From the IMG/VR virus record IMGVR_UViG_3300020183_000008, positions 91,271 through 155,270 of that record: 64,000 bases of DNA; one strand, written 5' to 3'. A program made the translations under genes and the position numbers. This DNA comes from a virus. Under the pieces are notes generated by a model that was not told the DNA's origin, did no database searches, and saw only the letters and a program-made list of their open reading frames with translations. Numbering within the stretch: position 1 is the first letter of the stretch; each line of letters starts with the position of its first letter. Shown here piece by piece: positions 44,864-64,000 of the stretch.

Positions 44864-45177
44864 AAAATTCTCGTATTGCAAATAACGTAGCTGCCCGATT
44901 TAAAAGAGCCTACTTAACTGTAAAGCTACCTATCAATTATGCCATAGTTGTAAATTGCAAGAAATTTCTCGAAGACAGGGACATCAGCGTAGATGATGAA
45001 ATTCTTGTTGAAATTTTATCCCGATACTTAGACTTGGTGATTTATGGTCTCTGCAACGGAAACACTCCATCTGAAGATGACCTTACGCAAGTCGCTACCG
45101 AAGTTGTCGATGAGTATAATGATGATGATTATCTCGATGATGATTTTCAAGATGACTTCGAAGAGGAAAGATTCTAA
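44860..45177 (+). CDS. Small acidic head-module protein with N-terminal RIANNVAARF helix
   Basis: The 105-residue protein begins MKNSRIANNVAARFKRAYLTV, followed by a compact domain and a very acidic tail (DDDYLDDDFQDDFEEE). Both ends overlap neighbours. The basic-hydrophobic head and acidic tail are typical of packaged or scaffold-interacting proteins. Confidence 0.55.
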   Translation: MKNSRIANNVAARFKRAYLTVKLPINYAIVVNCKKFLEDRDISVDDEILVEILSRYLDLVIYGLCNGNTPSEDDLTQVATEVVDEYNDDDYLDDDFQDDFEEERF

Positions 45178-46946
45178 TGGCATTTTTGAAGTATGCTGAT
45201 GCTATCGTAAATACACCTAAACTTGGTTCACATAAAGAGTGGAACAAGGTTCGTGTGGCATCTTCTGTGCCCTCTGTGCAGTCCGTTGCTGTAAATAATA
45301 TCTTGGCTGATTTTAGCCCTGATAAATATCTTTTAACTCACGCTACTATTGTTGCAAGCGTGGATGTCGAAAAAAACGATTATTATATCAAATCATGCTG
45401 TTCAAAATACGTTAACCAAAATGGTGATAGCTGGGAAAGAAAACTTCTTCTATCTACATTCCACACATTCATCGGTGCGCAAAATTACTTAGAGCACGTG
45501 CAAATACCGCACCTAAGTAAAGGCAGGATTATCGATGCAGTGGCTCGTTCAGTGAATGATGATGAATCTATTTACATAGACATTCTGGTCGCTACGAGTA
45601 AAGAGCACATTGATCTAGTAGAATCGATCGAAAATGGAACTTTAAATACCCTATCTATGGGGTGTTCAATTAAATTTTCTATTTGCTCAAAATGTGGGAA
45701 TCGAGCAGTTGATGAGACTCAGCTCTGTGACCATATCAAATACATGAAAAATCAATTTTTTGTAGATGAAGATGGTCAACAAAGAATTATCGCTGAACTT
45801 TGCGGTCACCGAGACGAGCCTGATTCAAATGTATTTATTGAAGCATCTTGGGTTGCGAACCCTGCCTTTAAGGGAGCTGTGTTGAGAAACATCATAGTCG
45901 CTAAAGATGATGCAGAAACGGCAAAAAAAATTGAAAAAGCATACATCTCTCGAAAAGCTGAATTCTCAAACATCGATGGGTTTTTAAAAGCGGCGTCAAT
46001 ATCACAAATCGATACGTTGATTTCAAAAATATCTAAAGCATTAAAAAACAAAAAAGCTGACGAAGATCCTCTTGGAGTGTTTGATGATGAAGACGAGGGT
46101 AAGCCTGCTGAAAATACTCAGGCGGAAGCAGATAAATTACAAAATGAATTAACGGATAGCTTAAAACAAGCACCACCTGCGGAAGCACCACCTGCGGAAG
46201 CACCACCTGCGGAAGCACCACCTGCGGAAGCACCACCTGCGGAACAGCCGCCTGCGGAACAGCCGCCTGCGGAACAGCCGCCTGCGGAACAGCCGCCTGC
46301 GGAACAGCCGCCTGCGGAACAGCCGCCTGCGGAACAGCCACCTGCGGAAGCACCACCTGCGGAAGCACCACCTGCGGAAGCACCACCTGCGGAAGCACCA
46401 CCTGCGGAAGCACCACAGGCGATGACTCCACAGGATGGGAGTCCTGCATCTTTAGAAGACTTGATCGATGATGTGAAAAAGAACATCCGCCAACAAATTA
46501 TGGATGAACTTTCAACCGAAGTTCAAAAAATGAACGCGCAAAATGATGATTACACCAGCCACCCTCAGAATTATCCACCGATGTCAAACAATGACAACTT
46601 GGTAAAAGCCTTTGTTAAAGAATATAAACCAAAAACAGGGTGGTCTTCTTCAAAATTAGCATCTGTTTGTAAAATGCTTGTTGCTCAAAACAATAAAGAA
46701 CCTTTGACCAAGTTTGCAAAAAATCGTCGTGATGCAATCGACTTTTTTGAATTTTTAGACAAATTTACAAGCAACGGTTTGTCCTCCATGCACTATAATT
46801 TATTGAGGCGTGCATCTTCCAAAGATTTTTCATCTCCTGATAATTTTTACTCTTATTTAAAAAAATCAGGGTTGGTTGATAACAACGTAATAAAAAAGAT
46901 TTTTGAAAGGGCTTCTCTGTTAAAGGTGCTTGATGACTATTCTTGA
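45177..46946 (+). CDS. Putative prohead protease with PPAE-repeat linker and C-terminal extension
   Basis: Residues ~50-240 look like a head-maturation protease: DILVATSKEHIDL with His 144, GTLNTLSMGCSI with Ser 160, then an inserted zinc-like block (CSKCGN...LCDH) and IEASWVANPAFKGAVL, the Ser-His arrangement seen in S78-type phage proteases. Residues ~330-412 are 16 repeats of PPAE(A/Q). The C-terminal ~150 residues are helical and could be a scaffold or delivery domain. A protease fused to scaffold-like sequence fits its place before the scaffold and capsid genes. Confidence 0.6.
   Translation: MAFLKYADAIVNTPKLGSHKEWNKVRVASSVPSVQSVAVNNILADFSPDKYLLTHATIVASVDVEKNDYYIKSCCSKYVNQNGDSWERKLLLSTFHTFIGAQNYLEHVQIPHLSKGRIIDAVARSVNDDESIYIDILVATSKEHIDLVESIENGTLNTLSMGCSIKFSICSKCGNRAVDETQLCDHIKYMKNQFFVDEDGQQRIIAELCGHRDEPDSNVFIEASWVANPAFKGAVLRNIIVAKDDAETAKKIEKAYISRKAEFSNIDGFLKAASISQIDTLISKISKALKNKKADEDPLGVFDDEDEGKPAENTQAEADKLQNELTDSLKQAPPAEAPPAEAPPAEAPPAEAPPAEQPPAEQPPAEQPPAEQPPAEQPPAEQPPAEQPPAEAPPAEAPPAEAPPAEAPPAEAPQAMTPQDGSPASLEDLIDDVKKNIRQQIMDELSTEVQKMNAQNDDYTSHPQNYPPMSNNDNLVKAFVKEYKPKTGWSSSKLASVCKMLVAQNNKEPLTKFAKNRRDAIDFFEFLDKFTSNGLSSMHYNLLRRASSKDFSSPDNFYSYLKKSGLVDNNVIKKIFERASLLKVLDDYS
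46170..46409 (+). repeat. 15-bp coding tandem repeat, 16 units
   Basis: Sixteen 15-bp units encode PPAEA (5), PPAEQ (7), PPAEA (4). Within each block the units are nearly identical in nucleotides, so expansion is recent or ongoing. The antisense frames are open through the repeat only because the period is a multiple of three. Confidence 0.9.
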
Positions 46947-49795: not shown

Positions 49796-50662
49796 ATGAA
49801 GGCATCTAACGAAACAAAGCAGAAGGTCATCTCTGACCTTATTAAGACAGCAGCAGGTCGCGCTAAACTCGCGGCTTCTATGGTTCAACCACTCCGTTTC
49901 CGTCGTGACTATACCTCGATCGGTCGTAAGACTTTCTTGGTTGAATCACTTCCTGATGGCGCGTTGCCAATCTATGACAAGGATCCTAAGGCTACAGCTT
50001 ATGTGATCGGTGAAGAAGGTGAAAACATTCTCGCTATCCAAAAGCCAAAGCGTGTAATTTTCCCATTGTTCGAAATCGCTTCGAATCCTGAAATCCCTCT
50101 TACTCAGATCAAAGAGCGTCGCTTCGACCTAATCGAACGTGCTCAAGATCTCGCTAAGTCTGAAATTCAGGCTGAAGAAGATGGTCGCGTATTTGAAATC
50201 CTCGACGCTATCGCTGGTGCAGCTACCGATGATGGTATCACTAACCCTGATATCCCTGTCGTTGCTCCTATCACCCCTAGCGTTCTCGCTGACAGCTACG
50301 CTGATGTTGAACGTCATGACCTTCGCGTCTCTAAGGTTTTTGCTAACGCAAAAGACTATAGCGATATTCGTAAATGGGGTCGCGACGTACTTGACATCGA
50401 AACTCAACAAACACTTCTCAAGACTGGATTGCTCGCGTACCTCTGGGGTGCACAAATCCTCGTCTCTCGTCGTGTTCCTGTGAACCATCTTTACACTTGC
50501 TGTGAAGCTGAAATGTTCGGCAGAATTCCTGTGCGTAGCGAATTGACTGTACTATCTGCTGATGATCCTAAGGCTCGTACTGTTGGATTCTCAATCTTCG
50601 AGAACATCGGAATCGGTGCGCATAACCCTGCGGGATTGTCGCGTCTTGTTGTAGCTCGTTAA
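49796..50662 (+). CDS. Major capsid protein
   Basis: The 288-residue protein has AAGGAG before ATG 49796 and a strong terminator just after its stop. Its codons are distinctly C-ending compared with neighbours, typical of a highly expressed gene. The sequence (LIKTAAGRAKLAASMVQPLRFRRDYTSIGRKTF, ERRFDLIERAQDLAKSEIQAEEDGRVFEILDA, GRIPVRSELTVLSADDP) has HK97-fold features: an N-arm, a long spine helix and a beta-rich end. No long delta domain is present, consistent with the separate scaffold. Confidence 0.75.
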   Translation: MKASNETKQKVISDLIKTAAGRAKLAASMVQPLRFRRDYTSIGRKTFLVESLPDGALPIYDKDPKATAYVIGEEGENILAIQKPKRVIFPLFEIASNPEIPLTQIKERRFDLIERAQDLAKSEIQAEEDGRVFEILDAIAGAATDDGITNPDIPVVAPITPSVLADSYADVERHDLRVSKVFANAKDYSDIRKWGRDVLDIETQQTLLKTGLLAYLWGAQILVSRRVPVNHLYTCCEAEMFGRIPVRSELTVLSADDPKARTVGFSIFENIGIGAHNPAGLSRLVVAR

Positions 50663-50890: not shown

Positions 50891-51784
50891 TCATTTGGAT
50901 ACCAACCCAATTTTATACCTAAACTCGCCCAAGATGTTCGGTTCAACGAGTTTTTCAAACTTATAGGCATCCACACCTTGAAAGAATATCCGCGAGTCTC
51001 TCGTGTATGCCTTCATACCCCACCGTTCTTGAAACCATCTGATTATGATTTCTCTATCTTCATCATCATAAGCATCTGTCGAGAGACCTATGAGATTTTG
51101 AGTTTTGAACCCATCATCTTGAAACCAATATGTGAGTCCTCTGTCATCTAATTTCCTCAGGGCGTCTTCGCTCACATACTTAATTCGACCTCGATAAAAC
51201 ATGGGGTGGATGTCACTGAAGATTTTTGAATTCACTGTTTTGAAAGAAACAGATGTGTAGGTCTTATCGGCTTTCTTGTGGTACCGTTCATTGACCTTGA
51301 TTTCGTTTGAAGTCAGGTTTCTAAGAACTTGGAATTTATGTTCACAGTAGCTCTTCTGGGGCAAGCCGTGCTCAAACTTAATTCTCGCAGATCCGTGGTG
51401 TAGTTCTAAAAAAGCATCTCCGAAAAGGCTTCCATAAATGAGTTGTTCTTGAATCGGGTGGAGCCAATTCAAAGGCTCATTTCCACTCCAAAGGGTTTCG
51501 TGCGTCAGTTGATGTCGTATCAGAGCCTTGCTGACCGCGATGGTAGTTGTATTGGCTTGTTTTGCGATCTCTTCGATTGTTCTTTTTTTCTCGATGTATT
51601 CTTCAATCAGAAATCTTTTTGTGATGTTCACACCATCGTTACGCCTGAACACAACCTTTTGGTTCTTGAGCCACGCATAGATTGATGAGAATGAAGAATT
51701 GAGGCGTTGCGCTATTTCCGTGATGGGGGCACCTGACAGGTAGAGTTGAACCGCTTGCTCGTGTTTTTCAGGTAGTTTTCTCAT
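50891..51784 (-). CDS. LAGLIDADG homing endonuclease with HTH N-terminus
   Basis: Start ATG 51784 is taken (the frame is open to 51865, inside the upstream gene). The ~297-residue protein has two HTH-like segments at the N-terminus (GAPITEIAQRLNSSFSSIYAWL and RTIEEIAKQANTTTIAVSKAL), then the two LAGLIDADG helices LIYGSLFGDAF and GLTYWFQDDGF, and the usual FRYKIGL end. It should cleave a long specific site and spread itself. It overlaps the Mom-like gene by 17 bp. No intron or intein was seen around it. Confidence 0.85.
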   Translation of the reverse strand: MRKLPEKHEQAVQLYLSGAPITEIAQRLNSSFSSIYAWLKNQKVVFRRNDGVNITKRFLIEEYIEKKRTIEEIAKQANTTTIAVSKALIRHQLTHETLWSGNEPLNWLHPIQEQLIYGSLFGDAFLELHHGSARIKFEHGLPQKSYCEHKFQVLRNLTSNEIKVNERYHKKADKTYTSVSFKTVNSKIFSDIHPMFYRGRIKYVSEDALRKLDDRGLTYWFQDDGFKTQNLIGLSTDAYDDEDREIIIRWFQERWGMKAYTRDSRIFFQGVDAYKFEKLVEPNILGEFRYKIGLVSK

Positions 51785-52652
51785 CAGGGTTTCTTTTTGG
51801 GTAGGGCTTAGTTTGATATTTTTTAAAAGTATTAAGTTCAGCCTGTTCTTTTTTATCTTTGCCAAGAACTAAGATGTATTTACCTTTCGGGTTGACTTTG
51901 ATTTTTTTAGATTCTTTTTTGATGTTTGATCCCCACTGATACCATGCTTTTTTGATAATATCTGGGATTTTGCTCAAGTCTTTAAATCCGTTTTCTTTAA
52001 TCCAACTTGGGTCGATGGTGATTCCAGTCTCTTTTGCCCATTTTTTAAGCGTTGATGTTCGTCTGAGAGTTTGTGGTGAGAAGGGTTCACCTTTTTTCAT
52101 GGCAGGGTGTACGAGCATTTCTTTTACACCGAAACCTGAGCCTAGGTATTCAAAGTTACAGGCTTGATAAATTGTACCGATTTCGTGCGCAGATGGGTCT
52201 GCATAAGCGACAAACATTCTTTTCTCGGTATTGCTCACCATCCATCGACACGAGTGCATGATCAAGCGGCTTGCTAAGTTTTTAGGAGTCCACGAAGCAC
52301 AGGCACCTCGTTGGATGAGAGCCTCATATTTTCTTGTGTTGGAACCGAGTATTTTGGAATAGCTGTTTGGTTCATTGATAAGGACGACACCACCGAGGAC
52401 ACCGTTGTAACGGGCTGTGAATACCCATTTAGGGCTAACTCCCGTGGTACCAAGCCATTCATAGGTCTTGATGAAGTGGGTGATCTCTTTGCTCATGGGT
52501 TCTAAACTGAGGGTAAAATCAGTAGCTTTGAGGGAAGAGTGGTCGAAGGGCAAGGTTTTAAGATCAGATTCGAAGAGGTTTTCTCTGATAATCCTCTGGT
52601 GGCTTTTCATACCTTGACTTTTTTCTTTAGGTTTTGATAGGTGTATAGACAT
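51768..52652 (-). CDS. Mom-like GNAT-fold DNA-modification acyltransferase
   Basis: The 294-residue protein has GVLGGVVLINEP, RGACASWTPKNLASRLIMHSCRWM, FVAYADPSAHEIGTIYQACNFEYLG and a late GKYILVLGKDKKE with a PYPKR end. These match the plan of phage Mom-family proteins, which modify adenine against restriction; a generic GNAT acetyltransferase is the alternative. ATG 52652 shares bases with the divergent ATG 52651; an internal ATG at 52610 is another candidate. It is followed by the endonuclease. Confidence 0.6.
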   Translation of the reverse strand: MSIHLSKPKEKSQGMKSHQRIIRENLFESDLKTLPFDHSSLKATDFTLSLEPMSKEITHFIKTYEWLGTTGVSPKWVFTARYNGVLGGVVLINEPNSYSKILGSNTRKYEALIQRGACASWTPKNLASRLIMHSCRWMVSNTEKRMFVAYADPSAHEIGTIYQACNFEYLGSGFGVKEMLVHPAMKKGEPFSPQTLRRTSTLKKWAKETGITIDPSWIKENGFKDLSKIPDIIKKAWYQWGSNIKKESKKIKVNPKGKYILVLGKDKKEQAELNTFKKYQTKPYPKRNPDEKTT

Positions 52653-54039: not shown

Positions 54040-54046
54040 TCTTTGA

Positions 54047-54073
54047 GGGTCGTCTTCGGACGACCCTTTTTTT
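54047..54073 (+). terminator. Terminator with UUCG tetraloop
   Basis: GGGTCGTC and GACGACCC form an 8-bp stem closed by TTCG and followed by seven Ts. Confidence 0.93.
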
Positions 54074-54386: not shown

Positions 54387-55298
54387 ATGAGTTTTTTACT
54401 AGGGTCAAACGCTGATTTTTTATTTCCAGTCGTCGCACCTGTTTCAGTATCTTCTGTGTCTGTTTTGACGGTGCAAGATTTGACGCCCGCTTCAATAGTG
54501 AGTGGTAAGCGGGAGCCTTTTTTAGGGCTTGCAGGATCAAGTTTAGTTCTGGAAGTTCCAACAGCCGATACAGATTTGTTTCAATCTAGGTTGGTTTCTG
54601 TTACACAGAAATTAGATTCTGATTTAGGAGCATCTGATGATGACTATCAATCGACTGTCATCGTTTCAGGTGGTTCTTTGCAAACCAGATTTCACGTTCT
54701 TTTGCAGAAACTAGACAATGACACAGGCGTGACGGATGATGATTACTATTCAAGCCTATCGTATTCATCAAGCGGATATTTCCAATCAAACTTTAATGAT
54801 TTGATGGATAAACTAGATGCGGACACGCATTTGGCATCAGCCGACTACGGTACATTAAAAATATCAGAGTTACAGACCATCACAGTTAATTTCGACAAGG
54901 ACTTAAACTACGCAAGTGAAATTGCAGGTGTGATTTCTCAGGCAGTTGGTTCATCGGGAAATATTGAAGTTTCCTCTCGTAATGGTTTCGTTTTAATCAA
55001 TTCGCTAGTTAAAGGTTCAGATTCAACCATCAGCGTGAAAAACACGAATCAGTCTCTCGGTTTAACGGTTACGGATGCGTTTGGAACAGACCATAATTTA
55101 TTATCTGTGAGCGCAGATATTAGTGTTGTGATGGTTTCTCCGACCTTGGCTGCGGTGAGCGTATATCTGGACAGAAACGTGTTCGTTTTGAATAAGCCTT
55201 ACTTCATCGTATTGAGCGATGGTGGTTCTCAGCAGATTGAGAGAGTCAGTATCATTCGTCAAAACTTAGCAAGTGCAAATTTTGTGGCGGGTGTATGA
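54387..55298 (+). CDS. Virion protein with internal ~40-residue repeats
   Basis: The 303-residue protein contains three related units, KLDSDLGASDDDYQSTV, KLDNDTGVTDDDYYSSL and KLDADTHLASADYGTL, spaced ~40-45 residues, in its first half, and a beta-rich second half. The repeats have Asp patterns that could bind calcium. It overlaps the next gene by 4 bp. Likely neck or tail. Confidence 0.55.
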   Translation: MSFLLGSNADFLFPVVAPVSVSSVSVLTVQDLTPASIVSGKREPFLGLAGSSLVLEVPTADTDLFQSRLVSVTQKLDSDLGASDDDYQSTVIVSGGSLQTRFHVLLQKLDNDTGVTDDDYYSSLSYSSSGYFQSNFNDLMDKLDADTHLASADYGTLKISELQTITVNFDKDLNYASEIAGVISQAVGSSGNIEVSSRNGFVLINSLVKGSDSTISVKNTNQSLGLTVTDAFGTDHNLLSVSADISVVMVSPTLAAVSVYLDRNVFVLNKPYFIVLSDGGSQQIERVSIIRQNLASANFVAGV

Positions 55299-56527
55299 TA
55301 GCGATAGAAAGAGGTCAGCAACTCACTAAAAACGATCTTCAGGTTTACGTCAGAGATGATGCGAACAATTTGGTCGACCCTTTTTCTATTACTTATGCGA
55401 TTTATGACAGGACGGGATCAAAACCTGTTTTAGTCGGAAATCGACTTGACCAACAGCCTGCCAGAGAATCCGTAGGCTTTTATTGGGCTAACATCCGAAT
55501 AGAAGATGCTGATAATCTCGGTGAATTCGAAATCGAATGGGCTATTCGGATTAACGAGAACTCTGTAAAAGAGTGTGTGAGGCAAAGGTTCTCTATCGTA
55601 AAGAAAAGCGATCCTTTGAGAATGCTTTCCAACACGGGTGGTGTAGCCTACTACCCCAATCAATTTCTCGGTCCAAACGAGCTATACATTCAAGTTTTAA
55701 ACGAAAGAAATAACCCTTTCGACCCATCAGAAATCACATACGCTATTTTCGACAGAACTACAGGATTAGACATCCTTGTAGGTTCACCTGCGCAAACTCC
55801 GACTCGAACATCGTGTGGAAGGTATCACGCGAATTTTCAAATCCCCGTAAACGCAAATCAAGGGGATTGGATTATTCGTTGGAATTTCAAGGATGATGCA
55901 ACGGACAGTGAGCGAAATGTTGTACAAGAGTTTGCTGTGGTCCATCCATCTACTGTTGTTTCTAGCCCTTATAAAGAACGCGAACGGGACTTTTTAAGAA
56001 GGTTGCGTTTTCTTCTTAGAGACAACAACCCAGATAGAAATTATAAATTTGTGCCTCCTGAAAGTGAAAGGGTCATACAAAACTTCACCGAGACCTTTGG
56101 GTTTATTTGGACTGATGAAGAGTTGTATGAATATCTTTTGCTTGCTGTAGATGCAGTGAACAACTACCCACCTTTAGAAGATCACTCTCTACCGAGCGCC
56201 CCATCCCATTTGGCGGCTCTTATCGTTCTCAAGGCAGCTTCGTTTGCTTTATCCGCTCTAGCGATAAATTGGGTGCATGATGAATTCGATTATTCAATCG
56301 GTGGTGTGTCTTTAAATATTGATAAATCATCTAAATATCAGGGTTTGTCTGAAAAGTTCGAATCTGAATATCAGACCCAATTAGAGCGTTACAAAGATTT
56401 TGGAGTCAAGATTATTATGGGTATTCAGCAACCACGTTACGGTATTGGTATCGCTTCGGCTTTAGGACCGTATAGTGGTCGCGGTGTTCAAAATAGAAGA
56501 AACTTCATAGGTAGTTATAGAATTTAA
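55295..56527 (+). CDS. Virion protein with two tandem Ig-like domains
   Basis: The 410-residue protein repeats a ~105-residue unit: LTKNDLQVYVRDDANNLVDPFSITYAIYDRTGSKPVLVG and LGPNELYIQVLNERNNPFDPSEITYAIFDRTTGLDILVG, each followed by a GxYxANxxI strand. From ~residue 230 a helical domain follows (FLRRLRFLLRDNNPDRNYKF, HLAALIVLKAASFALSALAI), ending in a Tyr/Gly/Arg-rich tail. A neck or connector protein is likely. Confidence 0.6.
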   Translation: MIAIERGQQLTKNDLQVYVRDDANNLVDPFSITYAIYDRTGSKPVLVGNRLDQQPARESVGFYWANIRIEDADNLGEFEIEWAIRINENSVKECVRQRFSIVKKSDPLRMLSNTGGVAYYPNQFLGPNELYIQVLNERNNPFDPSEITYAIFDRTTGLDILVGSPAQTPTRTSCGRYHANFQIPVNANQGDWIIRWNFKDDATDSERNVVQEFAVVHPSTVVSSPYKERERDFLRRLRFLLRDNNPDRNYKFVPPESERVIQNFTETFGFIWTDEELYEYLLLAVDAVNNYPPLEDHSLPSAPSHLAALIVLKAASFALSALAINWVHDEFDYSIGGVSLNIDKSSKYQGLSEKFESEYQTQLERYKDFGVKIIMGIQQPRYGIGIASALGPYSGRGVQNRRNFIGSYRI

Positions 56528-56553: not shown

Positions 56554-57024
56554 GTGTCATTTTCAACTGTATTATCTTCATTGAAACCTCAAGCAAAAGC
56601 TGTAGGTGTCTCTGAGGAATCTTTTTTTCTACATCAACTCCATAAGGTGGCAGCGGGCAGTGATCCTACTTTGCTACAAAATCTTGTAAATTATGCTAAT
56701 TCCTTAGGTATGGTTGCAACAGCAGCTATCGTCAATGACTTGCTTCAAAGTGCAACAAAAATTGCCCAAGCCGCTGTGGATATGAAGAGCGGATATCTGA
56801 CTGTTACAGGGTCGGACAATATCATCGTCCCTATTGGTTTTTTGGTTGATGAATATTTTGTGAATTTTATTTCTCCATCAAACCCATCATACATTACATG
56901 TTCACCTAATGTTTCTGACTCTGTTTCAGGGGAACTTTTGGTGCATAGTAGTCACGCACACAATTTTAAGATTACTTGGAATGTAGCGGGTACGAGAACT
57001 ATAAAATGGTTAGTAAAACAGTAA
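56554..57024 (+). CDS. Small virion-type protein
   Basis: GTG 56554 has GGGGAGGGG upstream. The 156-residue protein begins with a helical part (FFLHQLHKVAAGSDPTLLQNLVNYANSLGMVATAAIVNDLL), containing LHKVAAGS, another relative of the KxAxS pattern, then a beta-rich C-terminal domain. Its role is unknown; context says tail or neck. Confidence 0.5.
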   Translation: MSFSTVLSSLKPQAKAVGVSEESFFLHQLHKVAAGSDPTLLQNLVNYANSLGMVATAAIVNDLLQSATKIAQAAVDMKSGYLTVTGSDNIIVPIGFLVDEYFVNFISPSNPSYITCSPNVSDSVSGELLVHSSHAHNFKITWNVAGTRTIKWLVKQ

Positions 57025-57037
57025 AAAGAGACTTTAT

Positions 57038-58339
57038 ATGGAAAGATACGCGGTCTCCTCTGGAAACCGAATTACTGCTATTTTAACATCCAAACCTTTA
57101 GGTCGTGATTTCGTTGTCGTTCCGAAATCACTTTCATCCGTAACTGATACGGAAATCATCTCTAATTACTTCATTCAAAATCAAACCATCGAAAAATTAA
57201 ATGCGTGTAAAAAACCGTCTAAGATTGCGGTAATATCGAATTGGAATGTGAATTGCGGTATCGCTACTTACACAGGTTATTTAGTACAGTCTTTAAAAAA
57301 AATAACACCATCTGTGAAAATTTTTGCTGAAATAGCTGAAGGTGTACCATTTGAGAACGATGTTGTTAGATGTTGGGATAGGAAGGGTGACTACGGAAAA
57401 ATTCTAGGTGAGATTGAAAAATATAACCCTGACCTGATCATCATACAACATGAATTTGGTTTGTTTCATAAAGTTAATTTGTGGCAAACACTTCTGAGTC
57501 AATTATCCCGTTGGCGCGTGGTAACGACCTTCCATACGGTTTTGGAACATAGAGTTCCGAACTCGGATGCAAGTTTGGATTATAGAGCGCGTTCTTTCGC
57601 TGAAACGGCGTGTCTTGAAATTATAGTTCATCAAAAGAAAGCGAGAGAAACTCTTCGCGACCGTGGTTTTTCTGGTCGTGTCCATTATATACCTCACGGT
57701 TGTTTTGAACCGAATCGAGAGAAGCGACTACAACCCCAGAAATATGGAATGTATACTGACCATTCCATGTTTCAATACGGTTTTGGGGGTAGGCATAAGG
57801 GTTGGGAATTCGCGATTGATACTGTAGAAATTCTAAAGTCTAAATATCCCGAGATTCTTTATCTTGGTGTATTTAACATTCCTGTTGGAGGTGAAACTCA
57901 TACTCACCTCTATCACTTAGAATTGTTAGACTTGATAAAAAAGAAGGGTCTAACTGAGAATGTTTCGATCATCAGAGGTTTTCAATCTGAGATGATGATC
58001 AGGAATATACTCTCGGGTGTAAAAGTCGGTTTTTTCCCTTACCAGAGCCCTAAGAATTGGTTCAGTTGGGGTGCATCAGGGGCAGTGCAGATGCCTTTAT
58101 CGATGGGTCTACCTTTAGTGTTAGGCGATTTCTCTCAATTTGAAGAGTACCGAGGAAAAATACCTCTTGTGAAGACCCCAGAGGAAGCGGCTACTGAAAT
58201 TGATCACCTGTTTTCAGACCAAAATTACTGGAGTCAAATGTCTGAAAAATCTTTTAAAATTTCAGCGGAAAGAACTTGGACTAAAGTAGCCGAGTGGTAT
58301 TTGACTTGTACTTCTGAACAGGACTTTGATGCACTATGA
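57038..58339 (+). CDS. GT-B fold glycosyltransferase (GT4-like)
   Basis: The 433-residue protein has a first Rossmann segment, KIAVISNWNVNCGIATYTGYL, then PDLIIIQHEFGLF, VVTTFHTVLEH and VHYIPHG, typical of GT4-type enzymes. In the second half, GASGAVQMPLSMGLPLVLGDF occupies the donor-binding region. It likely transfers a sugar from a nucleotide-sugar. It is coupled by ATGA to the pyruvyltransferase-like gene, inside the virion block. Confidence 0.8.
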   Translation: MERYAVSSGNRITAILTSKPLGRDFVVVPKSLSSVTDTEIISNYFIQNQTIEKLNACKKPSKIAVISNWNVNCGIATYTGYLVQSLKKITPSVKIFAEIAEGVPFENDVVRCWDRKGDYGKILGEIEKYNPDLIIIQHEFGLFHKVNLWQTLLSQLSRWRVVTTFHTVLEHRVPNSDASLDYRARSFAETACLEIIVHQKKARETLRDRGFSGRVHYIPHGCFEPNREKRLQPQKYGMYTDHSMFQYGFGGRHKGWEFAIDTVEILKSKYPEILYLGVFNIPVGGETHTHLYHLELLDLIKKKGLTENVSIIRGFQSEMMIRNILSGVKVGFFPYQSPKNWFSWGASGAVQMPLSMGLPLVLGDFSQFEEYRGKIPLVKTPEEAATEIDHLFSDQNYWSQMSEKSFKISAERTWTKVAEWYLTCTSEQDFDAL

Positions 58340-59256
58340 AAATAAATTTCATCGGTTGGTATGGTAAAAATAACTTAGGTGATGATTCTTTTCAGTCAGT
58401 TTTTTCTCAGGCTTTTTACGGGCATGACTTAATTTTTTCTGAAAAGCCTGATCTAAGTGCCGATGCTTTTATTCTCGGCGGTGGTGGTGTTATTGATTAT
58501 GGTTATTTCGAGGGTTTAGAGAACCTTGGTAGCCGACCTTTGTACGCTGTCGGGGTTGATATACCGCTATCAGGTCCGCGTTACGGTGACCTGATCATGA
58601 AGTTTCCTTTTCGCAAGATTTACATTCGTTCGAAGGAATACTGTTGGTTAGCGCGTGCTCAGGGTCTATCGAATGTCGTGTACATGCCAGACATCGCTTT
58701 CTATTTGGAGCCGCCTGTTAAATCTAAATTCAACTTTCCGCCGAAATTGGGTGTGTCCTTGATGAACCATCTACTTCAAGATGAAGAACACCTACAAGAT
58801 CATATCGCCCGAGTTTTAGAAGTTAGAAAAGATACTTTTGACATCAGTTTTCTTATTTTTAAAGAATCTGATGAAATTATGGTTTCAAAAATATTGTCTA
58901 AGTGCTCGATACCTTGTCAAATTGTCAAACCTAAAACACCCGAAGAAATGCTCAAAGTTATATCAAACCTCGATGTTCTTTTAACTATGAGATTTCACGG
59001 GGCTATTTTCGCAAATATATGCAAGGTACCTTTTGTAAGTTTGAGCGACACCGGTAAGCACTCGATTTTCTGTGAACAAGAAAATTTACACAGTTCCTTT
59101 TTAGATATCAGGGATCTAAATCCATATAAACTTTTTGTAAGTTTAGAACGCATGTATGAAACGAAATCGCGAGGGACTCCAGAAATAAATAGAAAAGCAG
59201 TCGTTTTTACTTTATCTGAAATCAGAAAAGAGCTAGAATCATCTGACTTCTCCTAA
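58336..59256 (+). CDS. Polysaccharide pyruvyltransferase-family protein
   Basis: The 306-residue protein has IGWYGKNNLGDD, ILGGGGVIDYG, a middle YIRSKEYCWLARAQG and the family's LLTMRFHGAIFANICKVPFVSLS. The family adds pyruvate ketals to glycans (CsaB, ExoV, WcaK types). In a phage this would decorate a virion glycan or alter a host surface polymer. A motif copy lies inside the gene (58734-58748). Confidence 0.8.
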   Translation: MKINFIGWYGKNNLGDDSFQSVFSQAFYGHDLIFSEKPDLSADAFILGGGGVIDYGYFEGLENLGSRPLYAVGVDIPLSGPRYGDLIMKFPFRKIYIRSKEYCWLARAQGLSNVVYMPDIAFYLEPPVKSKFNFPPKLGVSLMNHLLQDEEHLQDHIARVLEVRKDTFDISFLIFKESDEIMVSKILSKCSIPCQIVKPKTPEEMLKVISNLDVLLTMRFHGAIFANICKVPFVSLSDTGKHSIFCEQENLHSSFLDIRDLNPYKLFVSLERMYETKSRGTPEINRKAVVFTLSEIRKELESSDFS

Positions 59257-59269
59257 AGGATAATCAGGT

Positions 59270-60403
59270 ATGACAGATGCTCTAATCGTGTACGATGGAT
59301 ATGGTGATTCAGGTGCCTTTGAAGAATTGTCAAATGAACTCAAATCTTCTGGATTGATGTTTGATACTATTACACATCTTGGTGAATACGACGATTGGAA
59401 AAAAGGTTTAAAAAATCCAAACACTCCTGTTCTTTTTTATCGAAACGAATTCATAAGAATAAAAAGTCCAAAAGAGTATTTGGACTATCACAGGCAGAAT
59501 CCAAATTCTCCTTTTACAACGGATACGAGTTGGGGTTTCTATCAACCAGTTTCTTTGAATCCATCCCATGTGCAAATAAAAGATGGTTTTAAACCGTATT
59601 CGGATAACTTTTTTAGCCTGTTGTACAGGTCATCTGATTACGTTTTAACCATCGCAAAACCACAGTATGAGCAAGTTCCGATTTTCGTTTTAGCTCACAA
59701 TAGACCTGAGTATCTTAAATTAACTTTGAATTCATTGCTGTATTCGACAGAAGATTTGGAAAATAGAAAAATCGTAGTCATTTTGAATGACGCAACGACT
59801 GAAGTGAGAAACCTGTGTTTTTCGTACTTAGACCGAGACCTTGAATTCTTAGAAATTTCGCCGAACGCGAAATTCGCAGCTTTGAACGTAGCTCTTCAGG
59901 TGTATAAGCCTAAAAAGTTTATTTACTGTGAGGATGATGTCATTTTCCCTGAGACGACGCGCAATTATTTTCCTCAGTGGGTCACCCAGTTTGCAAGTCG
60001 ACTTCATCAATTTGATATGGTTGCATGGCACTACGGTGTTGAGAATGTGAACGTGATCTATGGATTACAGAGATTGAATCTAAATGATCACAGTCGTTGG
60101 CTGCATGTCGATGAACATCCAGGTCTGACGATCGGAGGTCAGTGTTTCTGTACGACTTACGATTATTATTCAAAAGTGGCAACCAAAGAGAACGACTGGA
60201 CACCGACGGATAAGTTATTATTCCAAGGAAAATCATACTCCCCTTCATTAAGACTCTACCATTTAGGGGCAAACCACAGGATGGATTATCCGAATAAAAT
60301 TATAGATGGTAGTACATTTCGGGTAACATCGGATCGCTATACAGCAAAAAAGCTATTAACAGGGGAGAGATTTTCTGTTCACTTGGCTGACATAAAAAAC
60401 TGA
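59270..60403 (+). CDS. GT-A fold glycosyltransferase with unusual N-terminal domain
   Basis: The 377-residue protein has ~140 N-terminal residues of unknown type, then VPIFVLAHNRPEYLKLTLNSLLYST (GT2/GT-A entry), VVILNDAT, a CEDDVIFPE metal site equivalent to DxD and a C-terminal WHYGVENVNVIYG...WLHVDEHPG segment. This resembles alpha-1,3-mannosyl/GlcNAcT-I-like enzymes more than ordinary GT2. It ends the three-gene glycan set. Confidence 0.7.
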   Translation: MTDALIVYDGYGDSGAFEELSNELKSSGLMFDTITHLGEYDDWKKGLKNPNTPVLFYRNEFIRIKSPKEYLDYHRQNPNSPFTTDTSWGFYQPVSLNPSHVQIKDGFKPYSDNFFSLLYRSSDYVLTIAKPQYEQVPIFVLAHNRPEYLKLTLNSLLYSTEDLENRKIVVILNDATTEVRNLCFSYLDRDLEFLEISPNAKFAALNVALQVYKPKKFIYCEDDVIFPETTRNYFPQWVTQFASRLHQFDMVAWHYGVENVNVIYGLQRLNLNDHSRWLHVDEHPGLTIGGQCFCTTYDYYSKVATKENDWTPTDKLLFQGKSYSPSLRLYHLGANHRMDYPNKIIDGSTFRVTSDRYTAKKLLTGERFSVHLADIKN

Positions 60404-60405
60404 TG

Positions 60406-60636
60406 CTATTTTTTTCCGAATTGTTTTTCTAATTCTTTTCTCATTTTTGGAATTTCTGGGAATTCCGCTTCGCTTGGTTGGTCTGAAAGGTTGAAGCTTC
60501 CAGTAAGTAGTCAGAAATTCGCTTCAAACCTCTGGGCGGGATGCTCTCTCCGATCATTTCCCGAATATTTTTTATCGCGGAGCGGTTTTCTATCTGCCCG
60601 CTCCCACACAAAGTCAAAGTCTGCTACCGTATGCAA
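60406..60636 (-). pseudogene. Possible minus-strand gene interrupted by one TGA
   Basis: From TTG 60636 (AGGA upstream) one frame reads MHTVADFDFVWERADRKPL... to ANF, then TGA (60511-60513), then continues in frame with LLTGSFNLSDQPSEAEFPEIPKMRKELEKQFGKK to TAG at 60406. Both parts look like protein and share the frame, so a nonsense mutation or readthrough of UGA-CUA is possible. A second minus frame (60441-60617) is open but less convincing. The rest of the 319-bp gap holds only the leader of the gene at 60723. Confidence 0.35.
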
Positions 60637-60691
60637 AATGCATCCTATTCCCTGATCCTAATTTCTTTATTAGAATCAAGACACAACAAAC

Positions 60692-60715
60692 TATAATACT
60701 ATTTCAGCAAGGAGG
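60692..60715 (+). promoter_or_regulatory. TATAAT box and strong RBS before gene at 60723
   Basis: TATAAT (60692-60697) is followed by AAGGAGG (60709-60715), 7 bp before ATG. The -35 side is weak (TTAGAA about 16 bp upstream). The -10 to ATG distance is short, allowing only a very brief leader. Confidence 0.4.
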
Positions 60716-60722
60716 CTGATTT

Positions 60723-61568
60723 ATGACAGCAAGCACTAATCGAGAATATATCGCAACAAAAACTTTTTTTGCTGGTGAAATCAACTTAAAAATCAACGAA
60801 CAGGAGAGAATCAAGTTCGATGGTTTCAAGGCTTTGATCCGAGGGCAAGAATATAAATGCAGCACTTTGATGGCTGCCGTCAGAGCGGGTCTCTTGATGT
60901 TAGCTCAAACAGATGCATCTGGAAAGAGCATCGAACATGTAGAAGAATCAGCGGAAAATAGAGCCAAGAGGATGAAGGAAGAGCGTCTCCGCGCTATCAA
61001 CGGTGCGAAAGGAAACGGTGAGATCCTCGAAGAGATTGCGGTGAAGCCATCCAAGGTGGTAAAGCGTGATGGCACTCCGGTTGCCCAAGCTGCGGTTGTT
61101 GAAATCGCTGAAGTTAAGCATCCGAAAAAAGAAAAACGAGCCGTTGTACAAGAAAACGAAGGTAAAGAAGTAGCTAAGGTCACCAAAGCTAAATCAGGTT
61201 TGGAAGAAGACACATCGAAATCTTTTTATGAAGCCATGTTAGATGGGGATAAAAAGAAACTAGAAATTGCAAAAGACCAATTTGCAAGAAAAGTCATCAA
61301 AAAATCTAGTCAAGATGATGCGGTAGAAGTGAAGAAGTTGGTCGAGTCAGTAGGGGAAGCATCTGAGATCACTCCAAAAAAAGATCCGTTAAAAAGTTGG
61401 AAGTCCTTTACAGTAAAAAAGAAAGAGGCTTTCATCAAAAAAGCGACCGATATTTCCCTAATCAAAAGAATTATTGACAGTGAGGGTGGAAATCTTCGCC
61501 GAAAAGCTGAAGAAAGATTAGCGGAAGTAGATCATGCCAAAGCCAAAGATGTGGGACAACATCCATGA
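60723..61568 (+). CDS. Unknown Lys/Glu-rich protein, virion-associated by context
   Basis: The 281-residue protein has a folded N-terminal ~65 residues (NREYIATKTFFAGEINLKINEQERIKFDGFKALIRGQEY), a middle rich in Ala/Glu/Lys/Val likely to be disordered or coiled, and a helical C-terminus. It has one of the strongest RBSs here. It overlaps the next gene by 35 bp. Function unknown. Confidence 0.5.
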   Translation: MTASTNREYIATKTFFAGEINLKINEQERIKFDGFKALIRGQEYKCSTLMAAVRAGLLMLAQTDASGKSIEHVEESAENRAKRMKEERLRAINGAKGNGEILEEIAVKPSKVVKRDGTPVAQAAVVEIAEVKHPKKEKRAVVQENEGKEVAKVTKAKSGLEEDTSKSFYEAMLDGDKKKLEIAKDQFARKVIKKSSQDDAVEVKKLVESVGEASEITPKKDPLKSWKSFTVKKKEAFIKKATDISLIKRIIDSEGGNLRRKAEERLAEVDHAKAKDVGQHP

Positions 61569-63296: not shown

Positions 63297-63545
63297 ATGA
63301 ATAAACTTAGCGCACTAGCTCAAGAAATTGAAAAAATTGCTTATGAACTCGATGTATTTGGTGTTCAGAAAGAAGCGGCACAACCTCGACTTTATGAATA
63401 CGAATACGAAGGTATGAAGTTTTACATGGAAGAAAAGAAGCCACAAGGTGTTCGCCTTCCCGCAGGTAAGGCTTTATTTACAAAGAAATTTTACCCAGTT
63501 TCTGGCGCACTTGCAAAAGACCTCAAAGAAGATTCGGATGAATAA
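63297..63545 (+). CDS. Small protein with IEKIAYELDVFGVQKEAA leader and repeated C-terminal cassette
   Basis: ATG 63297 has AAGGAGG upstream. The 82-residue product has an N-terminal helix (LSALAQEIEKIAYELDVFGVQKEAA), then QPRLYEYEYEGMKFYMEEKKPQGVR and a Lys/Asp-rich end. The stretch from FGVQ onward recurs exactly in the next gene. It overlaps that gene by 8 bp. The head resembles the recurring helix signal. Confidence 0.65.
   Translation: MNKLSALAQEIEKIAYELDVFGVQKEAAQPRLYEYEYEGMKFYMEEKKPQGVRLPAGKALFTKKFYPVSGALAKDLKEDSDE
63357..63483 (+). repeat. Exact 127-bp direct repeat, copy 1
   Basis: Identical base for base to 63874-64000, offset 517 bp; the second copy runs off the window, so the true repeat may be longer. 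It encodes FGVQKEAAQPRLYEYEYEG onward in the same frame in both genes. Confidence 0.95.
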
Positions 63546-64000
63546 ATTTTTTGGTATATCCAAAAAAGAAATACGAAGTCTTTTTTTGGATACACCTGAG
63601 AATAAAAAATCATCGTTTTTAAAAGAATTGATGGATTTTTCTAAAAAATACATCAGTGACCACGATGTTTATTCTTATGTTAAAAATTTTGATGATGGTA
63701 TCAGTTTTGAAAAAGCTAAAAAAGAAATTTTGAAAAGCCAAGAAGAAGCAAAACAATTCTTGGAAAGTTTGCCACCACAAGAAATCCCAAAAAAGGAAAT
63801 CATCGTGAGAAGAAAACAAAGTCTTGTAGAACTTGCAAAAAAGATCGAAAAAGTAGCTTATGAGCTAAATGTTTTTGGTGTTCAGAAAGAAGCGGCACAA
63901 CCTCGACTTTATGAATACGAATACGAAGGTATGAAGTTTTACATGGAAGAAAAGAAGCCACAAGGTGTTCGCCTTCCCGCAGGTAAGGCTTTATTTACAA
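63538..64000 (+). CDS. Partial protein carrying a second copy of the FGVQKEAA cassette
   Basis: ATG 63538 lies inside the previous gene's end, and the frame is open to the window edge (154 codons). The first ~100 residues are new (GISKKEIRSLFLDTPENKK...), mostly charged helix. QSLVELAKKIEKVAYELNVFGVQKEAA and the exact repeated cassette follow. So the helix plus cassette is internal here but N-terminal in the upstream gene. Confidence 0.7.
   Translation, partial: MNKFFGISKKEIRSLFLDTPENKKSSFLKELMDFSKKYISDHDVYSYVKNFDDGISFEKAKKEILKSQEEAKQFLESLPPQEIPKKEIIVRRKQSLVELAKKIEKVAYELNVFGVQKEAAQPRLYEYEYEGMKFYMEEKKPQGVRLPAGKALFT
63874..64000 (+). repeat. Exact 127-bp direct repeat, copy 2 (cut by window end)
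   Basis: See copy 1 at 63357. No silent differences are visible, which implies very recent duplication or gene conversion. Confidence 0.95.

Follow-up and report, generated by a model that had tools for sequence, protein, structure and literature searches.

Glycosylation of virions by phage-encoded enzymes is already known, and the demonstrated cases are few; Che8 and other mycobacteriophages are among them (Freeman et al. 2023, as presented in PMC11256854 and PMC12619734). Among the pyruvyltransferases of the PF04230 family, the PEP site has been placed at R148, R306, H308, and K328 of CsaB by mutagenesis and modelling (PMC10435577), and R217 and R337 of Pvg1p touch PEP in the published model (PMC4872226). 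Glycosyltransferase (GT) clusters of jumbo phages, in turn, have been interpreted as a means of outer-polysaccharide modification (PMC7824862). We found no report of a pyruvylated phage virion glycan in a literature that was mainly the openly accessible one, which makes this weak evidence. The term "pyruvyl" is absent from the huge-phage literature examined, PMC12619734 included, and the sole mention of phages in a review on pyruvylation regards the O-antigen as phage receptor. Within open-access text, one paper brings together polysaccharide pyruvyl transferase, phage genomes, and glycosyltransferases, namely a Klebsiella phage-resistance study.

We analysed a window of 64 kb (G000:91271-155270), the closing part of an incomplete virus record of 155,270 bases. 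An earlier note had claimed a three-gene glycan cassette at positions 57038-60403 with virion genes around it. Both points agree with our data: three intact co-directional open reading frames (ORFs) occupy exactly that interval, and a major head protein, a maturation protease-like protein, and a connector homologue are encoded nearby (Table 1). The cassette lies ~6 kb downstream of the major head protein gene, and the record also encodes, outside the window, a terminase large subunit and a portal. In Tunturi_5, a Tunturiibacter phage whose host phylum is Acidobacteriota, the genes after the annotated head-tail connector encode a tail terminator and a tail sheath. A consensus scan revealed no strong plus-strand terminator between position 54068 and the cassette, so the cassette and the connector are likely co-transcribed.

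Table 1. Features of the cassette, its surroundings, and related gene groups (window positions unless a locus or record is named)
Feature	Position	Strand	Details
Head maturation protease-like protein	45177-46946		
Major head protein	49796-50662	+	phrog_2522, 2.2e-52
Terminator-like hairpin, upstream of connector unit	54045-54068	+	consensus scan only
Head-tail connector-like protein, left flank of insertion	55295-56527	+	30% to Tunturi_5 connector
p56554, candidate acceptor or virion protein	56554-57024	+	156 aa; co-inserted with enzymes
GTB, GT4-like GT-B glycosyltransferase	57038-58339	+	433 aa; PF13439 5.5e-8
PYR, polysaccharide (ketal) pyruvyltransferase family protein	58336-59256	+	306 aa; PF04230 1.1e-13
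GTA, GT2-like GT-A glycosyltransferase (~residues 133-377)	59270-60403	+	377 aa; PF00535 4.3e-4
p60723, right flank	60723-61568	+	homologues in L002, L003-L005
RmlD, RmlB-like, RmlA-like, 117-aa protein, and GT-B gene	L086:704-4861 = G000:76704-80861	minus	outside window
PF04230 and Glyco_transf_7C/GT2 pair	L023:8808-11634; L026:11596-14471		

GTB and PYR overlap by 4 nt, and 13 nt separate PYR from GTA, in keeping with the coupling or close spacing described before. GTB scored 33.4 bits against PF13439 (cut-off 28.5) and PYR 52.1 bits against PF04230 (cut-off 25.3), both above threshold, and GTA reached 20.7 bits against PF00535, slightly below the cut-off of 23.3. The GT-B, pyruvyltransferase-family, and GT-A identities given by the earlier note were thus recovered, the last one just under the threshold. 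The same is true of the unknown N-domain of GTA: only residues 138-228 aligned to PF00535, and residues 1 to ~132 had no Pfam family match. A GTA relative (32% identity) is located elsewhere in record G002. The cassette proteins had no match in PHROGs, and PDB sequence searches with GTB, PYR, and GTA gave no significant match. The composition of the cassette is that of the neighbouring genes. Between the window and locus L002 the synonymous sites of the cassette genes are saturated and pN/pS is 0.23-0.36, which argues that the genes are maintained; as judged from these orthologues under purifying selection, the ORFs are not chance ones.

Relatives of the connector were gathered from 80 viral loci. 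In L002, whose connector is 90% identical, p56554, GTB, PYR, and GTA occur in identical order (68%, 69%, 59%, and 67% identity, respectively). In L003-L005, which share the flanking genes and a connector at 70% identity, all four genes are missing: the p60723 homologue lies directly 3' of the connector, at ~50 nt. Since p56554 is present with the cassette in L002 and missing with it in L003-L005, it moves with the enzymes, and the unit is of four genes, one more than the three originally noted. The gap between GTA and p60723 (60404-60722) is 320 nt in the window against ~40 nt in L002; it has no Rfam match and its folding is not unusual. The motif CTATAATA is located upstream of p60723 in the window, L002, and L003; as it is not enriched within the window, we withhold a promoter claim for it.

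The window holds two other features. A Mom-family DNA modification gene (51768-52652, minus strand; PF25680, 9.5e-13) overlaps a LAGLIDADG endonuclease-like gene amid the head genes (together 50891-52652, minus strand), and this pair has homologues in several relatives. At 63297-63999, two consecutive small ORFs have in common a ~60-aa segment, AAQPRLYEYEYEGMKFYMEEKKPQGVRLPAGKALFT, that is nearly identical between them; this tandem duplication is present in L003 and L005 too.

The residues of the PEP site are recognisable in the window PYR: R98, R219-F-H221, and K241 correspond to those of CsaB, with the lysine 20 residues after the histidine exactly as in that enzyme, the equivalence of R98 to R148 being assigned by motif and not by structural superposition. 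The four equivalents are kept in six phage PYRs (window, L002, LR756511, L104, L114, and L119). The L114 protein also matched the NCBIfam CsaB model (1.4e-17), under its equivalog cut-off. On these residues, PYR is predicted to transfer pyruvyl from PEP to a sugar. The EDD motif of GTA (221-223) is invariant between the window and L002, and GTB retains a GFG-KG loop. The retaining GT4 enzymes usually carry an E-x7-E motif. The GTB family has GASGA[VI][RQ] in place of this pair, and for this reason we class GTB as GT4-like rather than typical GT4 and regard its donor as uncertain.

Single-protein searches of viral contigs with PYR, GTA, or GTB found nothing, and two-sequence alignment searches returned L002 as the only match. 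The recurrence of GTB was assessed with a three-sequence alignment including the LR756511 orthologue (33%). It matched 17 viral loci, L002 among them, and gave two weak matches (27% and 22%) in 84,980 bacterial and archaeal genomes, both counts being lower bounds because the search was pattern-based. The family is apparently phage-specific. Among 50,697 phage records, LR756511 alone had a detectable relative of the GTB or PYR family.

In LR756511 (595 kb) and in twelve loci (L105-L113 and L116-L118, where the nearly identical L110 and L111 are both counted), GTB stands behind one or two ~100-aa proteins. On contigs that extend far enough, portal and an 80-aa gene precede these proteins, and GTB is followed by head maturation protease, a scaffold-like gene, and major head protein; the assignments in LR756511 are phrog_213 for the portal (1e-72), phrog_207 for the protease (3.5e-46), and phrog_138 for the major head protein (5e-81). 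In L104, L114, L115, and L119, a small-family protein of 89-113 aa is followed by a PYR homologue and then by GTB, an order also recovered with the PF04230 and small-protein profiles. The PYRs of these four loci are 22-26% identical to that of the window (E 1e-13 to 2e-21), and their modules lie outside any recognised portal-protease cluster. The PYR of LR756511 (39% to that of L104) is at 164 kb, far from GTB at 529 kb. The portal frame of LR756511 (L101:11444-14017) contains an extra, intein-like stretch with a weak HNH-endonuclease match, and a 1005-aa frame with intein-type matches is found at L114:13643-16660.

The L104 small protein was modelled with 16 family sequences (mean pLDDT 80), giving a helix and a six-stranded beta-sandwich. 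The best Foldseek matches were the phi297 tailspike, Helix pomatia agglutinin (an H-type lectin), the SLL-2 lectin, and R-pyocin fibres, all moderate (E 0.007-0.08, probability ~1, TM ~0.4-0.5), and the model further matched viral tail-fibre or H-type-lectin proteins. The fold predicted for the small huge-phage proteins thus bears a moderate resemblance to those of H-type lectins and tailspikes. Homology of p56554 to this small lectin-fold family (A6) found no support in three tests: hhalign gave a probability of 3%, hmmsearch gave no match, and the alignment mostly did not exceed shuffles. The p56554 model, with a predicted helical N-half and beta C-half, was itself of low confidence (pLDDT 49), too low to support a fold search. 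For these reasons we treat p56554, on sequence comparison, as a positional analogue only of the lectin-fold proteins.

Glycosyltransferases are also found near the connector in other relatives. Of the connector-bearing records that are 75 kb or longer and contain PF00535 genes, 18 in all, 10 have such a gene within 10 kb of the connector (rotation expectation 3.2, P 0.0004) and 15 within 17 kb (4.9 expected, 0/5000 rotations), and no significant excess was found within 5 kb; since the distances were hand-chosen and the records are related, we take this enrichment as supporting evidence only. In L023 and L026 (connector 43%), one gene downstream of the connector, another PF04230 protein is encoded with a Glyco_transf_7C/GT2 protein; the R-x-H motif of this PF04230 protein lacks its first arginine. 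In L023, the intervening gene has an ART-PolyVal match. In L006-L012, ~4-16 kb upstream of the connector and on its strand, lie multi-domain glycosyltransferase frames of very large size (565-1810 aa). The large GT cluster of record G005 is far from the head genes.

None of the cassette proteins has a hydrophobic stretch suggestive of a membrane segment, and the enzymes are predicted to be soluble. A Wzx-type flippase (PF01943) was not found in seven records, which are incomplete. Regarding sugar supply, RmlD (above cut-off), RmlB-like, and RmlA-like genes lie at 76.7-79.8 kb of the G000 record, so that the phage may itself make one nucleotide sugar or more; this gene group possibly provides a dTDP-6-deoxyhexose. 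At the end of the record opposite the window (L082, G000:1 to ~19790, minus strand), a collagen-like frame of at least 6593 residues with GVQG-x-TG repeats runs past the contig end. Two glycosyltransferase genes in opposite direction (494 and 781 aa) are just beyond its start, the 494-aa one with a sub-cut-off match to a SunS peptide glycosyltransferase.

Glycosyltransferase genes are encoded here together with virion genes, as expected of a virion glycosylation system. The scenario we favour, to which we give about an even chance, is cytoplasmic glycosylation of a virion protein by a late module, with a pyruvate ketal ending the glycan. In this large tailed phage, the four-gene module inserted into the head-connector operon would be expressed late alongside the connector, and its enzymes would act in the cytoplasm on a virion protein, either ahead of assembly or while it proceeds. 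Both GTs together may assemble a short oligosaccharide from host nucleotide sugars, possibly with the phage-made dTDP-6-deoxyhexose, and PYR would then add a terminal pyruvate ketal from PEP, making the virion glycan negatively charged. The likeliest acceptor would be the small protein encoded just upstream, i.e., p56554 here and the lectin-fold proteins in huge phages. As a likely benefit, the particle could gain stability, diffuse or adsorb differently, or be shielded. We favour a virion target because GTB recurs in head clusters of unrelated huge phages, the enzymes appear soluble, and no flippase was found. The earlier note's enzyme identities hold up, and the virion target that it considered is the favoured one; the existence of the glycan, its pyruvylation, and its location on the virion and not on the host surface are inferred from the genes. 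Some observations weigh against the favoured scenario: the distance between PYR and GTB in LR756511, the unsupported homology of p56554 to the lectin-fold family, the absence of E-x7-E from GTB, and the incompleteness of the records.

The main rival, in our view unlikely, is that the enzymes remodel the LPS, capsule, or exopolysaccharide of the host, e.g., with a pyruvate ketal, blocking superinfection or progeny re-adsorption. WcaK is a PF04230 enzyme that acts on cell-surface glycans. The characterised members CsaB and Pvg1p do the same (PMC10435577, PMC4872226), and this, together with the interpretation given to the jumbo-phage clusters (PMC7824862), makes the host surface the main rival. 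The relative with a big GT cluster away from the head genes (G005) fits it as well, and soluble GTs can act on lipid-linked host glycans too. Against it, the cassette lies within a head-connector operon and GTB is in head clusters elsewhere, its proteins have no hydrophobic segments, Wzx was not found in the seven incomplete records, and GTB is almost absent from bacterial genomes. We consider distinctly less probable that the virion glycan is neutral and that PYR has been repurposed, either as a transferase of another kind or as a structural partner. Few members of the broad PF04230 family have been characterised, the window PYR shares just 22-26% identity with the huge-phage PYRs, and the L023/L026 version lacks an arginine; nevertheless, all four PEP-site residues are kept from the window to LR756511, L104, L114, and L119.

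Two further explanations appear very improbable. One is that the GTs hypermodify phage DNA instead of protein: phage GTs that glycosylate DNA do exist (Pyle 2024, as described in PMC12619734), and the Mom-family gene is close by, but the cassette family is placed in head clusters, and no thymidylate synthase-like gene was found in the incomplete records G000 and G001. The patchy distribution and the empty site in close relatives could suggest, instead, a recently captured, non-functional fragment of a bacterial polysaccharide locus. To our knowledge, pyruvyl transfer to DNA glycans does not occur in any described system. The non-functional capture is largely contradicted by a composition equal to that of the neighbours, by purifying selection across saturated synonymous sites, and by a recurrent module whose GTB family is apparently phage-specific.

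Returning to a virion glycan, a broader and more tentative possibility, somewhat doubtful at present, is that a late module composed of a small lectin-fold or co-inserted protein, a pyruvyltransferase, and a phage-specific GT-B is common to several large-phage and huge-phage lineages, and that it equips a virion surface protein dedicated to this role with an acidic glycan capped by pyruvate. If true, the module would be the phage counterpart of sialic-acid-like capping. How stable a particle is, how it diffuses and adsorbs, and how it is recognised all depend in part on its surface charge. With its candidate acceptor and its unusual acidic cap, such a recurrent module would make virion glycosylation testable in huge phages, and the GT-B family with PF04230 near portal or connector genes offers a genetic marker for possibly glycosylated virions in metagenomes.

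As in the jumbo-phage outer-polysaccharide clusters (PMC7824862), several GT genes are present in G000 along with sugar-nucleotide genes; in contrast to those clusters, the cassette GTs sit within the connector operon, and the seven incomplete records searched yielded no flippase. With CsaB and Pvg1p the phage PYR has in common the family match and the PEP-site residues, but CsaB adds pyruvate to a secondary cell wall polymer and Pvg1p is a membrane-anchored yeast enzyme, whereas the phage PYR is encoded among head genes and predicted to be soluble. The LR756511-type head cluster of the Al-Shayeb huge phages has a GTB of the same family, which immediately follows a small protein in the portal-protease interval. 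It differs in that no GTA homologue was recognised beside GTB, PYR is elsewhere in the LR756511 genome and was not found in some of its relatives, and homology between its small proteins and p56554 is not supported. In the Che8-type phages, the capsid and tail-tube subunits are the acceptors and their glycans have been demonstrated, whereas the glycan and acceptor of the cassette are predicted ones; the available accounts of those phages report no pyruvyltransferase, unlike the cassette with its PYR. What they share is the mode that we propose here, namely phage GTs acting on virion proteins.
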